Source: Anaeromicropila populeti (GTDB lineage: Bacteria > Bacillota > Clostridia > Lachnospirales > Lachnospiraceae). Taken from it: DNA of 64,000 nucleotides. Both the position numbers and the translations under genes were made by a program. Below the pieces are notes generated by a model. It searched no databases. It was given only the letters and a program-made list of their open reading frames with translations, and was not told the origin of the DNA. The stretch spans positions 1 to 64,000 of the forward strand of contig NZ_FOYZ01000006.1 in NCBI RefSeq assembly GCF_900112775.1, written 5' to 3'. Positions 46,947 to 51,463 of this stretch are shown here, piece by piece. Every line of letters begins with the position of its first letter. Positions within the stretch are counted from its first letter, which is position 1.

Positions 46947-47021
46947 TTTATTATGCCTCCTTTTATATGCTAGTTATATTTTATACAGGATTGAATGATA
47001 TAGTCAATGTAGTATATTAAT

Positions 47022-47049
47022 TTGCCAATAGATTTTTATATGATATAAT
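47022..47049 (+). promoter_or_regulatory. yjdF promoter
   Basis: TTGCCA (47022-47027), 16-nt spacer, TATAAT (47044-47049) with TG extension. Confidence 0.7.
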
Positions 47050-47059
47050 AGTAATTGCG

Positions 47060-47165
47060 AAGATAAAAACACAGTTCTGGTTGGTAGTCCAGACGTAATC
47101 ATAAACATTCATGTAGTTAAGGTTATCAGTAACCTGCCTCCGGGTTGTCCGTTCTTTGTTATTTA
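47060..47165 (+). promoter_or_regulatory. yjdF riboswitch-type structured leader
   Basis: About 100 nt between promoter and ribosome site with clear stems: TCTGG/CCAGA, GGTTA/TAACC (47121-47134) and a competing AACC..GGGTT that reuses the second arm. Leaders in front of yjdF (DUF2992) genes are known as the yjdF motif, a riboswitch for azaaromatic compounds. Identification rests on the gene and the hairpin-rich leader; I did not verify the covariance model. Confidence 0.65.
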
Positions 47166-47185
47166 TTTTCAAGGAGGAAATTAGA

Positions 47186-47605
47186 ATGGAAAAAGAAATC
47201 GTAAAGTTGCAGGTATTTTTTGAAGACCCCTTTTGGATTGGTATTTTGGAAAAAGTATCAGATGGTAAATTGAATGTAACGAAAATAACCTTTGGTGCAG
47301 AGCCAAAAGATTATGAAGTTCAAAAGTATCTTATGAAAAACTGGTTTCAGCTTCGATTTAGTCCAGCTATTGAAGCCGAGATGAGTGAAAAGGACCGGTT
47401 GAATCCTAAGCGTTTACAGCGTGACGTGAAGAGGCAGCTTCTGAGTGCCAGAATAGGAACAAAATCTCAGCAGGCTTTAAAATTGCAGCAAGAGCAGAAC
47501 AAGGCAGAAAGAAAGAACCGTATTCATAAAAAAAGTGAAGAAGAAAAAGAGCAGAATTTTGAACGAAGACAGCAAAAGCGAAAGGAAAAGCATAGGGGAA
47601 GATGA
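47186..47605 (+). CDS. yjdF: YjdF-family protein (DUF2992)
   Basis: 139 residues. N-terminal half LQVFFEDPFWIGILEKVSDGKLNVTKITFGAEPKDYEVQKYLMKNW is the DUF2992 signature; C-terminal half is highly charged, Lys/Arg/Gln/Glu-rich, ending RRQQKRKEKHRGR, so probably nucleic-acid associated. Members are controlled by the yjdF riboswitch and are thought to help against toxic aromatic compounds. Start 47186 has AAGGAGG 8 nt upstream. Confidence 0.9.
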   Translation: MEKEIVKLQVFFEDPFWIGILEKVSDGKLNVTKITFGAEPKDYEVQKYLMKNWFQLRFSPAIEAEMSEKDRLNPKRLQRDVKRQLLSARIGTKSQQALKLQQEQNKAERKNRIHKKSEEEKEQNFERRQQKRKEKHRGR

Positions 47606-47660
47606 TGTGAAGACTTTGTAATAATTAGAAACTTTACTCTTTGTGTACTGAAACAAATAA

Positions 47661-47709
47661 AAATCCAAAGAAATAAAGGATTTATTCCTTTTTTTCTTTG
47701 GATTTTTTT
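47661..47709 (+). terminator. yjdF terminator
   Basis: Long A/T-rich stem with core ATCCAAAGAAA / TTTCTTTGGAT, followed by a seven-T run. Confidence 0.8.
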
Positions 47710-47779
47710 ATGAATAATAAGAAAAAAACAATAAATATGTGTTCAATGTTAAATATATATTACAAAACAATATTATATA

Positions 47780-47807
47780 TTGATAATAATGGAAAAAATG
47801 ATATAAT
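47780..47807 (+). promoter_or_regulatory. promoter of the ACSP-repeat peptide locus
   Basis: TTGATA (47780-47785), 16-nt spacer, TATAAT (47802-47807) with TG extension. Leaves a ~200-nt leader. Confidence 0.65.
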
Positions 47808-48011
47808 ATATGTAACATATGAAGAAAAACAAATTATTTATTTTAATTCTATTTATAAGTTGATATTTATTTGGGTATTGAACCAATCGGGTTCATAATG
47901 TGAAAATCTCTTTCGTGTACATATAATAGGAATTTTATTTCTATTGGACATGAAGTGATTTTATAAAAAGTATCAGAACAAAAAAATCAGTTTTAAAAAG
48001 GAGGAAAAATT
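47808..48011 (+). other. leader of the ACSP peptide gene
   Basis: AT-rich, with a small hairpin TGAACC/GGTTCA (about 47879-47896), a second TATAAT at 47922 without a good -35, and AAGGAGG 8 nt before the ATG at 48012. No ORF of its own is supported. Confidence 0.45.
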
Positions 48012-48449
48012 ATGTCAAAAGTAAGTAGTTTAATCGATGTAATTAGCGCATGTAGTCCAGTGAATGCATGCAGCCCAGAAAGCGCATGCAGTCCAGTGAA
48101 TGCATGTAGCCCAGAAAGTGCATGCAGTCCAGTGAATGCATGCAGTCCAGAAAGCGCATGCAGTCCAGAAAGTGCATGCAGCCCAGTGAATGCATGCAGC
48201 CCAGAAAGCGCATGCAGCCCAGTGAATGCATGTAGTCCAGAAAGCGCATGCAGCCCAGTGAATGCATGCAGTCCAGAAAGCGCATGCAGCCCAGTGAATG
48301 CATGCAGTCCAGAAAGCGCATGCAGTCCAGTGAATGCATGTAGCCCAGAAAGTGCATGCAGTCCAGAAAGCGCATGCAGTCCAGTGAGTGCATGTTCACC
48401 AATGGGATTTACAATTCTGGAAACACAAGGATGGGCAGTGGCTGTCTAG
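48012..48449 (+). CDS. ACSPxx-repeat RiPP precursor peptide (20 Cys)
   Basis: 145 residues: a 12-residue leader (MSKVSSLIDVIS), twenty hexapeptides ACSPxx, and a 13-residue tail (FTILETQGWAVAV). The hexapeptides alternate ACSPVN and ACSPES, with ES doubled at units 6-7 and 17-18, and end ACSPVS, ACSPMG. Every Cys is exactly six residues from the next. A radical SAM/SPASM gene starts 18 nt later, so this is very probably a RiPP precursor whose Cys are cross-linked, e.g. by thioether bonds to residues in the xx positions (ranthipeptide-like). Related short-period Cys-repeat peptide families with radical SAM partners are known; I cannot place this unit in one of them. Confidence 0.88.
   Translation: MSKVSSLIDVISACSPVNACSPESACSPVNACSPESACSPVNACSPESACSPESACSPVNACSPESACSPVNACSPESACSPVNACSPESACSPVNACSPESACSPVNACSPESACSPESACSPVSACSPMGFTILETQGWAVAV
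48048..48407 (+). repeat. tandem repeat array coding the ACSPxx units (20 x 18 bp, mostly 36-bp dimers)
   Basis: 360 bp of in-frame 18-bp units, arranged mainly as 36-bp pairs (VN unit plus ES unit). Differences between copies are almost only synonymous (AGC/AGT, TGC/TGT). GCATGC recurs at most Ala-Cys junctions. Confidence 0.95.
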
Positions 48450-48467
48450 CGAAAGGAAAAGAAGTGG

Positions 48468-50180
48468 ATGGAAAAATTACGAGTATTATGGTTGGAAGAT
48501 GGGCAATGTATTCTGTTTAATGCCTTAGATAAAAGGATATCTAAAATTTGTCCTTCATATGTTGGTAAAGCTGCTGAAGAGGCAGCATCAGGTAAAGACC
48601 TGGCTGTTGTAATAGAAGATGTGATTGCTGAAAAGGCATTGCAGGAAAGTACGGAAAAGCTTATTACATATATTGCAGGAAGTAAGATAGAAAAACAAAA
48701 AAGACTGCCTGTTGAAGTTAAGAGGTTTAACCGCACCCTTGTTTTATGTGTAAGCGCTCTGTGCAATTTAAGATGTGTATATTGCTCTGGAAATGCAGGC
48801 AATCGATCGGATAATATGATGAGCTGGGATTTGGCAAAGGACAGCATTGATTATTTTTTCGACCATTGTAGTGAATCTGGACCATACACTTTACAATTTC
48901 ATGGAGCTGGCGAACCAATGACAAATCCAGATATTGTTATGAAGTCGGTAGAATACGCAAGACAACTGGCAAATCAAAGAAATCAGAAACTTCTTACCAG
49001 AATGTCAACCAATGGTATTTTTTCTAGTGATGTGGCAGAATGGATGGCAGAGAATATGAATCATGTAAGCCTGTCATTTGATGGTCCACCTGAGATACAT
49101 AATAAACAGCGTCCTAAGCGGGATGGAAGAGGAAGTTATGATACCGTTGTAAATACTATTAAGATATTAACTAGGACGGGTTCTTTAAGAAGAATGAATA
49201 CTGTGGTTACCAATGAAGGAACTGACAGACTGGAAGAAATTATTCGCCATGTATATGGGATTAGTCAGGTTAAGGAAATTCGTATTCTACCGATGGAATA
49301 TTGTGGACGATGTGAGGTTAGCGGTGTCCAGCCAATCAATCTGGAAAAATATAAGAAGAGCTTTGAAAATATTATTCCAGTGGCACAGTCTTTAGGAGTA
49401 AAGATTATCACGAATCTGGAGCAGTTGAATTACTACACAGAACATTATTGCGGAGCCTGCGGATTTAATATGTGTGTTACCCCTGCTGGCGTAGTAAGTA
49501 CTTGTGTTGAAGCAATGGATGAACGAGAAGAAGGTATTGATGAATTATTTATTGGAAAATATGATAAAGAAATTCACTCGTTTTCCATTGACTGGGACAA
49601 AGTGTTTAAATTGCGAAGCAGAACATATTATAATCTGGATGAGTGCGGTAAATGTGTGTTTCGAACCAATTGTGCTGGTAATTGCCTGATTCGGTCTGGA
49701 AGAAAAAATAAAACAGTTATGTCTGTTGACAAGGATGCTTGTGATATGACAAAGCTTACACTGACAAAGCAGTTAGTTGATATGGCTAAAAGCGGAGAAA
49801 CCTTGGCTGAAAAAAGTGCTAATGGTGAAAAAACTCAGGTGAGTTTTCAGGAATTAGTTGATCTTTCAAGGAAGGTTGCAAAACAATTTGACCAAGTAGA
49901 GCTACGCCCATGGACAATTGAGACAATGCTGTTAGAATTGACCAAGCAAGTAGGAGATTTGACCAAGTATTTTATGACATTTGAAAACTATTACCTTGGA
50001 GACAGAAAACTACATCCTAATTATAGGGCTTCCAAGGATTCTATTGGAAACGAATTGGCAGATATTATGCATGCGGTTATTCGCATAGCAGATTATTACC
50101 AAATAGATTTGGAAGATGCTTTTCAAAAAGCACGTATGGCAGAACTTAATTATTGCAAGCGTGTGGAGCAGAACATATAA
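48468..50180 (+). CDS. radical SAM/SPASM peptide maturase with C-terminal MazG-like domain
   Basis: 570 residues. Residues 1-~80 could be a leader-binding (RRE-like) domain. The radical SAM cluster motif is C99-x3-C103-x2-C106 (CNLRCVYC), with GAGEP at ~146-150. A SPASM domain with auxiliary Fe-S Cys follows (C328, C331, C336, C346, C393, C396, C402, C406, C425). Residues ~455-565 look like a MazG-type all-alpha NTP pyrophosphohydrolase: RPWTIETMLLELTKQVGDL, NELADIMHAVIRIADYY, IDLEDAFQKA. ExxD (E529, D532) is kept, but the first EExxE is K493-Q494-xx-D497, so activity may be lost. It very likely modifies the peptide encoded 18 nt upstream. Confidence 0.9.
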   Translation: MEKLRVLWLEDGQCILFNALDKRISKICPSYVGKAAEEAASGKDLAVVIEDVIAEKALQESTEKLITYIAGSKIEKQKRLPVEVKRFNRTLVLCVSALCNLRCVYCSGNAGNRSDNMMSWDLAKDSIDYFFDHCSESGPYTLQFHGAGEPMTNPDIVMKSVEYARQLANQRNQKLLTRMSTNGIFSSDVAEWMAENMNHVSLSFDGPPEIHNKQRPKRDGRGSYDTVVNTIKILTRTGSLRRMNTVVTNEGTDRLEEIIRHVYGISQVKEIRILPMEYCGRCEVSGVQPINLEKYKKSFENIIPVAQSLGVKIITNLEQLNYYTEHYCGACGFNMCVTPAGVVSTCVEAMDEREEGIDELFIGKYDKEIHSFSIDWDKVFKLRSRTYYNLDECGKCVFRTNCAGNCLIRSGRKNKTVMSVDKDACDMTKLTLTKQLVDMAKSGETLAEKSANGEKTQVSFQELVDLSRKVAKQFDQVELRPWTIETMLLELTKQVGDLTKYFMTFENYYLGDRKLHPNYRASKDSIGNELADIMHAVIRIADYYQIDLEDAFQKARMAELNYCKRVEQNI

Positions 50181-50212
50181 AGTATATGAACAATGAAAAT
50201 AACCAACTTACT

Positions 50213-50237
50213 ATCCCCCTTTAATGGGGGATCTATT
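50213..50237 (+). terminator. weak terminator-like hairpin after the maturase gene
   Basis: 7-bp stem ATCCCCC/GGGGGAT with loop TTTAAT; followed only by CTATTTAT. Confidence 0.5.
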
Positions 50238-50296
50238 TATGTGATAGGAAATTACTCCGCATTTGTTTTCAGACAACTTTAGGAGGAAGGATCAGA

Positions 50297-51463
50297 ATGA
50301 AATATAATTTTGATAAAATAATTGACAGACGTTTTACAGAAAGTACAAAATGGGATGGTATGACAGATTATTTTGGAAGTAACAAACCTTTGCCAATGTG
50401 GATTGCCGATATGGACTTTATGACACCCAAACCTATTATTAAGGCAGTGAAGAGACGATTAAAGCATCCGATTTATGGGTATTCCTTTCCTGGGGAATCA
50501 TGCTATGATGCTATTATAAAAAAAATGGCCAGAGATTTTTCGTGGAAGATAAAGAAGGAATGGATCGTTTTTACCAATGGAGTAGTAGATGGACTGGATA
50601 CAGGAATCAAATCATTGACTGAGCCGGGAGATTCTGTAGTGATTCAGCCTCCAGTGTATTTTCCATTTACAAGCGTAATTAAAAATAATAAGTGTGAGAT
50701 ATTAAATAATGTGCTGCTGAATCAAAATGGCCAGTACACGATGAATTATGATGATTTGAGAAGTAAATTGAGTAAAAAACCAAAAGCAATTATTCTTTGC
50801 AGCCCCCATAATCCTGTTGGAAGGGTATGGAGAGAAGAAGAGTTAAAGGAATTAGGGGAAATGTGTTTTGCAAATAATTGTGTGATGATAGCAGACGAAA
50901 TTCATAATGATATTGTTTTTAAATCAAATCAACATACTGTACTAGCTAGTATTAATACAAGGTTGGAACAGAGTACAATTTCTTTGTTTTCCTCTAGCAA
51001 AATATTTAATACACCAGCTTTTCATACAGCTTTTGCAGTGATTCCAAACCCAGAACTGAGGGAGAAGTATTTACAGGCAAGAATGGGTCAGAACGGAGGG
51101 AACTTATTTGGATATATTGCGCTGGAAGCAGGATATAATTGTGGGGATAAGTATAAGAGAAAAGTTGTAAAGTATATAGAAGCTAATATCGAGTATTTTG
51201 TAAAATACATAAATAAAAATATTCCTCAATTGCAAGTTGTAAAGCCAGAGGGAACTTATTTGGTTTGGGTGGATATGAAAGATTTAAATATATTGCCCGA
51301 GCAGCGAAATAAGTTTCTAATTCAGAATTGCAGGCTTGCATTAGACGAGGGCGGCATTTTTGGAGAAGGAGGAGAGGGGTTTTACCGCTTTAACCTTGCT
51401 TGTCCACGCGTTTATGTGGAAGAAGCACTGTTACGATTAGAAGAGGCTATAAAAAATCTTTAG
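50297..51463 (+). CDS. MalY/PatB-type PLP-dependent C-S lyase / aminotransferase
   Basis: 388 residues, fold type I. Blocks MWIADMDFMTPKPI, YGYSFPGESCYDAI, VVIQPPVYFPF, CSPHNPVGRVW and the PLP-lysine in SLFSSSKIFNTP, then NLACPR near the end. Relatives cleave cystathionine or other Cys S-conjugates (beta-lyase) or act as aminotransferases. It follows the RiPP maturase by 116 nt across a weak hairpin; a role in the peptide pathway is possible but more likely it serves sulfur amino acid metabolism. AGGAGGAAGG 7-8 nt before the ATG. Confidence 0.88.
   Translation: MKYNFDKIIDRRFTESTKWDGMTDYFGSNKPLPMWIADMDFMTPKPIIKAVKRRLKHPIYGYSFPGESCYDAIIKKMARDFSWKIKKEWIVFTNGVVDGLDTGIKSLTEPGDSVVIQPPVYFPFTSVIKNNKCEILNNVLLNQNGQYTMNYDDLRSKLSKKPKAIILCSPHNPVGRVWREEELKELGEMCFANNCVMIADEIHNDIVFKSNQHTVLASINTRLEQSTISLFSSSKIFNTPAFHTAFAVIPNPELREKYLQARMGQNGGNLFGYIALEAGYNCGDKYKRKVVKYIEANIEYFVKYINKNIPQLQVVKPEGTYLVWVDMKDLNILPEQRNKFLIQNCRLALDEGGIFGEGGEGFYRFNLACPRVYVEEALLRLEEAIKNL

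Follow-up and report, generated by a model that had tools for sequence, protein, structure and literature searches.

A twenty-fold ACSPxx array beside a radical SAM/SPASM gene in Anaeromicropila populeti: a candidate ranthipeptide-like locus

What is a peptide with a cysteine at exactly every sixth residue made for, and is the radical S-adenosylmethionine (SAM) gene that follows it the gene of its modifying enzyme? This question is raised by two adjoining genes of Anaeromicropila populeti (Lachnospiraceae), found in the window analysed here, which is the whole stretch of 64,000 nucleotides at positions 1 to 64,000 of contig NZ_FOYZ01000006.1. The first gene encodes a putative precursor consisting mostly of contiguous ACSPxx units, and the second, with its ATG at 48468 and thus 18 nt past the precursor stop, a predicted radical SAM/SPASM maturase. 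With a probability of about 58% we read the locus as a two-gene unit for a ranthipeptide-like ribosomally synthesised and post-translationally modified peptide (RiPP), in which Cys would be linked to Glu three residues on or to Asn four residues on. That the array is the substrate of the adjoining enzyme is likely, and better supported than the kind of bond, its acceptors or the number of links. At the level of the genes the arrangement is that of a ranthipeptide locus, with a Cys-rich precursor gene next to a radical SAM/SPASM gene.

Related enzymes and their cysteine-rich partners

The main evidence comes from the relatives of the enzyme. In a tree of 28 rows the window enzyme falls into a set of nine (support 96/96, starred) that stands apart from the SCIFF, PeaB, Nif11, lachnocin and FibroRumin rows; the branches are long, and one member, own_L003 from the same genome, may be misplaced. 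Seven of the nine rows carry an extra residue in the GGEP motif, which reads HGAGEP in the window and HGGGEP, HGEGEP, LGGGEP or CGGGEP in several of its kin; own_L003 has the plain GGEP and L170 is without the GEP motif. As a partner we scored any open reading frame (ORF) at most 200 nt away with at least five Cys in 40 residues, leaving out own_L003, and such a neighbour is present in five of the seven other members (L134, L135, L162, L169 and L170), the Salmonella and Edwardsiella loci (L163 and L164) being negative. Among other long ORFs, which came from all of the eight loci except L135, two of 14 scored as well, both of them neighbours of the same Cys-rich ORFs.

The nearest relative, from Methylocystis (L134), has an ORF of 128 aa with 19 Cys and several DC pairs 32 nt past the enzyme gene, and a recombinase gene lies nearby on the other strand. 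In Caballeronia (L135) an overlapping ORF shows a CSC...CAC...CVC stretch after an N-terminus that by eye resembles a twin-arginine translocation (Tat) signal, and in Chlorohelix (L162) the protein encoded 24 nt before the enzyme has 422 aa, begins in a Tat-like manner and is rich in Cys at its end. A short, Asp/Asn-rich ORF with five Cys follows just 3' of the enzyme gene in L169, and the preceding gene of L170 contains a CTCDLNC...CC stretch. As most of the related enzymes have Cys-rich partners, the group appears to act on Cys peptides, and this makes the array the likely substrate of its neighbour. PapB is the best model for the relatives L134, L135 and L169, and neither these three nor the window enzyme reach an NCBIfam cut-off among their 25 best models each.

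The Salmonella and Edwardsiella loci are on plasmids and encode peptides of 57 and 59 aa that end in a CCRGG region and match no NCBIfam family at 1e-5, together with an ABC transporter, an S8 peptidase and, upstream, a hypothetical gene. Distant kin of the enzyme were found on plasmids and virus-labelled contigs, and the group with Cys-rich partners spans Chloroflexota, Alpha- and Betaproteobacteria and virus-labelled contigs, most members having the extra GGEP residue.

The array, its enzyme and the links they may form

The original prediction had described a 12-residue leader, twenty ACSPxx units with Cys at period six and a 13-residue tail, and the ORF at 48012-48449 agrees with this exactly: all 19 gaps between the 20 Cys are six and the units follow each other without interruption. 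The alternation of VN and ES that had also been described holds for most of the array and is not strict, as the xx pair is ES in ten units, VN in eight, VS in one and MG in one, in the order VEVEVEEVEVEVEVEVEE followed by VS and MG. Counted from Cys, Glu stands at +3 in ten units (CX2E) and Asn at +4 in eight (CX3N). All 80 Ala, Cys, Ser and Pro codons of the array are free of residue changes, with silent variation in Cys (15 TGC, 5 TGT) and Ser (11 AGT, 8 AGC, 1 TCA), a pattern for which duplication and conversion within the array rule out a formal selection test. Tandem Repeats Finder reports a 36-nt unit over the array with 90% matching. The G+C content of the array is 53% compared to 35% for the window, and at third codon positions the precursor (G+C 0.33) resembles the neighbouring genes. 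The length of the array rests on a single assembly and the peptide/enzyme pair is known from one genome.

Going by its CX3CX2C motif and by the seven-Cys pattern and spacing characteristic of SPASM domains, the second gene would encode a radical SAM/SPASM protein, and here the earlier assignment to the peptide-maturase type stands, with a thioether former as the nearest solved structure. The Pfam model Radical_SAM (PF04055) matches with 51.6 bits, over its cut-off of 29.5, while the Pfam model SPASM (PF13186) does not match the enzyme despite the Cys pattern; C331 and C336 are also present in the Methylocystis enzyme. Among the best 25 of 69 matching NCBIfam families the top three are the SCIFF maturase TIGR03974 (122.2 bits, cut-off 425), PapB NF047865 (119.3, cut-off 340) and CcpM (114, cut-off 500), and further scores are those of Cys-every-fifth CefB NF038107 (90.7, cut-off 600), RumMC (80) and CXXX-repeat TIGR04115 (74.7, cut-off 350). 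The best sequence match in the PDB is 5WGG (4e-26). A structure model built with seven homologues from virus-labelled contigs is confident in the barrel alone (mean predicted local distance difference test, pLDDT, 58.7; predicted template modelling score, pTM, 0.55), and its Foldseek ranking is led by 5WHY and 5WGG, whose title names thioether bond formation, followed by anSME, ChlB and TigE. The nearest solved fold of the predicted structure is thus that of a thioether former, which we take to be CteB.

The original prediction had overlooked the C-terminal region of the enzyme. Its residues 440-570 are 41% identical to a stand-alone protein of 109 aa from another genome (G095; L159, 1480-1809), which has no radical SAM gene within its 3.3-kb locus. 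Both this protein and the C-terminal region stay below the Pfam cut-offs for MazG and MazG-like (16.1 of 22 and 15.0 of 27 bits for residues 440-570), and the extension is lacking in the aligned relatives L134, L135, L162, L163 and L164.

Which bonds might such an enzyme form? Known non-alpha thioether acceptors are Asp in freyrasin, where it serves six times, Asn in NxxcA, Thr in SCIFF and Asp/Glu in QhpD (PMC8326336); PapB modifies CXnD motifs with n anywhere between 0 and 6 and accepts Glu as well, CSANDA being the test motif (PMC9413430), and both Asp-Cys repeats and a multiply modified TVGG repeat have been described (PMC9062424). Because the known acceptors carry a functional group and either Glu at +3 or Asn at +4 is fixed in 18 of the units, we infer Cys-Glu and Cys-Asn thioethers. 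The enzyme would recognise the short N-terminus of the precursor, the presumed leader, and work along the array, where a 5'-deoxyadenosyl radical would abstract a hydrogen from a side-chain carbon of the residue just past Cys, that is Glu +3 in the ten ES units and Asn +4 in the eight VN units. Bound to an auxiliary cluster, the sulfur of Cys would then form a bond to this carbon, each link lowering the mass by 2 Da; for the untagged sequence the calculated monoisotopic mass is 14095.856 Da without modification and 14055.543 Da with twenty links. The product might be a long chain on which small thioether rings follow each other at regular distances, with about 18 to 20 links at most. No transporter, exporter or protease gene belongs to the unit, so the product may remain intracellular or leave by general export.

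With its twenty exact repeats the array lends itself to asking how far, and in which direction, a radical SAM maturase moves along its substrate, and two types of unit in one peptide provide an internal control for the choice of the acceptor side chain. A regular thioether chain, if true, would also be useful in peptide engineering. We think it rather unlikely that the product is a protein-length ladder with as many as twenty thioether rings, some Cys-Glu and some Cys-Asn, made by one enzyme from a maturase group that we could not place in an NCBIfam family and that carries its own fused helical MazG-like module, for which we would propose the role of a guide, a counter or a nucleotide sensor. 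To our knowledge such a ladder would be the most heavily and most regularly cross-linked thioether RiPP.

Table 1: Features of the two-gene locus, in window coordinates
Feature	Position	Strand	Remarks
Promoter-like site TTGATA-16-TATAAT, TG before the second hexamer	47780..47807	+	11/12 matches
Ribosome binding site AGGAGG, 7 nt 5' of the start ATG	47999..48004	+	sequence
Putative RiPP precursor, 145 aa, 20 Cys	48012..48449	+	read from the ORF
N-terminal leader MSKVSSLIDVIS, 12 residues (presumed leader role)	48012..48047	+	
Core of twenty ACSPxx units	48048..48407	+	
C-terminal tail FTILETQGWAVAV, 13 residues	48408..48446	+	
Predicted radical SAM/SPASM peptide maturase, 570 aa	48468..50180	+	
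Residues 1-88 at the N-terminus, three strands followed by helices; possible leader-binding domain (RiPP recognition element, RRE)	48468..48731	+	low-confidence models, pLDDT mostly <50
CX3CX2C radical SAM cluster motif (C99, C103, C106)	48762..48785	+	
HGAGEP, the GGEP motif with one extra residue, common to six other rows of the tree set	48900..48917	+	
SPASM Cys C328-X12-G-X4-C346, C393-X2-C396-X5-C402-X3-C406, C425	49449..49742	+	
C-terminal helical MazG-like region, residues 440-570	49785..50177	+	sequence likeness; low-confidence helices
Terminator-like stem-loop 3' of the second gene	50213..50232	+	

Known systems and other explanations

Precursors with periodic Cys and radical SAM partners are already known (CXXX-repeat, Cys-every-fifth and Asp-Cys repeats), and the original prediction went too far in calling the array unlike any precursor, as CXXX-repeat and Cys-every-fifth families are part of NCBIfam and long Cys ladders lie beside radical SAM genes on virus-labelled contigs. 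New here are the period of six, the uninterrupted 20-fold unit, an enzyme group that we could not place in a named family and the added C-terminal region.

The PapA/PapB pair for freyrasin from Paenibacillus polymyxa also combines several Cys motifs per precursor with a radical SAM/SPASM enzyme, PapB being the second-best model, and the PapB test motif resembles CSPVNA and CSPESA of the window in the unit C-S-x-x-x-A (PMC9413430). Freyrasin has six CX3D motifs, in contrast to twenty window units without Asp after Cys, and the CX3D or CX3E motif of PapB-family precursors is absent from the window peptide. PapB has the standard GGEP, and the window enzyme differs from it by the extra residue, the C-terminal region and a score below the PapB cut-off. 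SCIFF (CteA/CteB) is similar as a small unit of peptide and enzyme and provides the best sequence and fold match, but has six Cys in about 45 residues compared to 20 in 145, and again the enzyme stays below the family cut-off. The same holds for the CXXX-repeat and CefB families, which share a periodic Cys target and a radical SAM partner with the window locus and have, by family name alone, periods of four and five instead of six. Cluster 59, described as a recombinase, a radical SAM enzyme and an Asp-Cys repeat peptide, is likewise a small unit with a Cys repeat peptide, and from this description the Methylocystis locus would belong to it, whereas the window peptide has no Asp-Cys (PMC9062424). 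TvgA/TvgB is another case of a repeating core modified several times by one radical SAM/SPASM enzyme, yet its TVGG motif is without Cys and the chemistry is carbon-carbon (PMC9062424).

The same genome encodes a CcpM enzyme over its cut-off (593.5 of 500; L002, contig C27), with no small Cys-rich ORF seen right beside its gene, and, at L004 (contig C22), a SCIFF-type enzyme accompanied by its peptide; a search for loci related to this SCIFF-type enzyme found none. With these two systems present, the array locus would be a third and separate one.

Even if enzyme and substrate belong together, the sulfur could be bound to backbone alpha carbons instead of side-chain carbons. Such sactipeptide-type links are formed by other SPASM maturases of Cys-rich peptides, as for RumC (PMC8188230, PMC8326336), and the CcpM and RumMC models do score on the enzyme, but the links are non-alpha for the two best models, SCIFF maturase and PapB, as well as for CteB, the best fold (PMC8326336), and the constant position of Glu or Asn in 18 of the 20 units fits side-chain acceptors, so that we regard alpha links as unlikely. 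A different radical SAM chemistry on the array, such as carbon-carbon links, epimerisation or dehydrogenation with Cys left free or as disulfide, is suggested by the radical SAM partners that turn TVGG repeats into cyclopropylglycine (PMC9062424), by TigE among the fold matches and by the two-Cys peptides of the Salmonella and Edwardsiella relatives; since Cys is the sole strictly periodic thiol in the array and is common to the partners of most related enzymes, we consider this quite improbable. That the array serves as a Cys protein for metal binding or structure and needs no maturing, with the radical SAM gene as a chance neighbour, appears very unlikely to us. Twenty free thiols would bind metals and the precursor shows a weak NCBIfam match to the copper-binding bufferin precursor (BufA, 23.8 bits, cut-off 60), which we rejected as kinship, the query being a low-complexity repeat. 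Bufferins are copper peptides made by MNIO enzymes and an MNIO partner would be expected, but the adjoining gene is a radical SAM maturase at a distance of only 18 nt, and no MNIO match was obtained in the four neighbouring genes scanned. Moreover, a Pro in each unit and Cys at every sixth residue differ from known metallothioneins.

Does the regularity itself mean anything? The spacing of Cys is beyond chance for a random sequence, yet taken alone it proves little, because an 18-nt tandem repeat of any kind makes each of its open frames repeat after six residues. Among 19 loci that match the array in other genomes, six (L139, L141, L142, L143, L152 and L155) show a Cys gap of six at least six times in a row, in each case with a longer frame of another kind over the same DNA, and L139 even shows 20 Cys at an exact period of six (19 gaps) in a frame opposite an IF-2-like gene. 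A functionless DNA repeat that arose by slippage or wrong assembly could therefore look like this locus, and the 36-nt tandem repeat with its 90% matching in one genome only would fit such an origin. The window array is set apart by the longest frame over the repeat (150 aa from stop to stop compared to 121 on the opposite strand), a ribosome binding site, unique ends and the adjoining radical SAM gene, and no residue has changed at the 80 Ala, Cys, Ser and Pro codons despite the silent changes. We thus hold a functionless repeat to be most unlikely, although the by-product frames elsewhere led us to weight it slightly up and the ranthipeptide-like reading slightly down. An antisense ORF of 119 aa (48043-48402) was rejected as a gene, and so was kinship of the precursor to DUF1388 (Pfam, 32.8 bits, cut-off 25.9), again a match of a low-complexity repeat.

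Besides these period-six by-products of other 18-nt repeats, several observations weigh against a ranthipeptide-like unit with Cys-Glu and Cys-Asn links. The direct sister of the window enzyme is own_L003 (90/90, not starred), which is on a long branch, has the plain GGEP and the mycofactocin maturase as best model, and shows no Cys-rich ORF right beside it. The peptides of the Salmonella and Edwardsiella relatives have just two Cys, as a CC pair. In the precursor the leader is short, the last two units (VS and MG) offer neither Glu nor Asn, and no Asp is found within six residues after any Cys, so that the CX3D motif is absent. No sequence match to a leader-binding (PqqD-like/RRE) domain was found in the N-terminal 88 residues of the enzyme, and the model is poor outside the core, residues 1-87 and most of those past 384 being at pLDDT <50. 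Co-conservation of the exact pair is not seen, with no orthologue in the sampled genomes. Finally, the window enzyme stays below all cut-offs among its best 25 of 69 NCBIfam families, those named in the original prediction included.

Further copies and the surroundings of the two genes

The same pair had been expected in related genomes, but no second copy of the enzyme turned up in the genomes sampled. As an orthologue of the enzyme the window genome stands alone among 299 genomes of the family at 1e-60 and among 295 genomes of relatives at 1e-32, and among 391 genomes of the class at 1e-30 three score, namely the window genome and two in which the enzyme is accompanied by a SCIFF-like peptide. 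The samples, which partly share their genomes, come from a larger group, and the genus is represented by one genome. In searches that reach close relatives only, six 8-residue patterns from the enzyme matched three stretches of genome contigs with no relative among them, viral contigs gave nothing and the genus gave the window genome alone. At 1e-40 the four-row profile A1, which includes the window enzyme, found matches within the phylum in 103 of 219 genomes; among the 30 loci with the best matches the 29 others all have plain GGEP, and in 20 of these a SCIFF-like peptide adjoins the enzyme.

For the array, an ACSP DNA pattern matched at least 117 stretches of genome contigs in one scan and nine in another, and by eye these look like low-complexity or out-of-frame Cys frames. 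At 1e-3 a protein search with the array matched 82 of 295 genomes, with a second match in the window's own genome (contig C23). None of the 19 loci read from other genomes (L139-L157) encodes a relative of the enzyme, and ACSP units occur in L142 only (four units, opposite a 923-aa frame). A tblastn search with the enzyme across 133 loci matched the window-genome loci L001-L006 alone. In the open-licence literature, where a missing match is not the same as absence in print, nothing was found on Cys-every-fifth systems, on MazG joined with radical SAM and SPASM or on CXXX repeats with radical SAM; ACSP with radical SAM gave unrelated work only, and Cys-rich repeat ranthipeptides only a review and a discovery platform. 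'Hexapeptide repeat' was not among the matches listed.

From the promoter-like and terminator-like sites, which are weak, precursor and radical SAM gene look like a two-gene unit: 11 promoter-like sites were found compared to 10.4 expected in shuffled sequences, which makes them weak evidence on their own, and three terminator-like stems compared to 1.9. The downstream neighbours, a PatB-type C-S lyase and a cyclase, were rejected as parts of the unit because the terminator-like site lies between. On the upstream side an azaaromatic (yjdF) riboswitch precedes a DUF2992 (YjdF) gene, which is a known arrangement. The riboswitch, within 47053-47605 together with the start of the gene, scores 80 bits (gathering score 45), and an Rfam scan of 47000-51000 found nothing besides it.

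A side observation, which may merit a separate study, concerns virus-labelled contigs (L230-L309), for which no open-licence paper on phage radical SAM genes beside Cys ladders was found by title. On these contigs radical SAM genes often lie at most 150 nt from long periodic Cys ladders, for example in L253, L298, L240, L249, L292, L254 and L309. Counting six Cys per 40 residues, a ladder is located beside the radical SAM ORF in 35 of 70 loci compared to 27 of 163 control long ORFs, the controls including other neighbours of the same ladders. The ladders comprise CTCNCNY heptads, CxxC ladders and C.C.SRT arrays, with up to 81 Cys.

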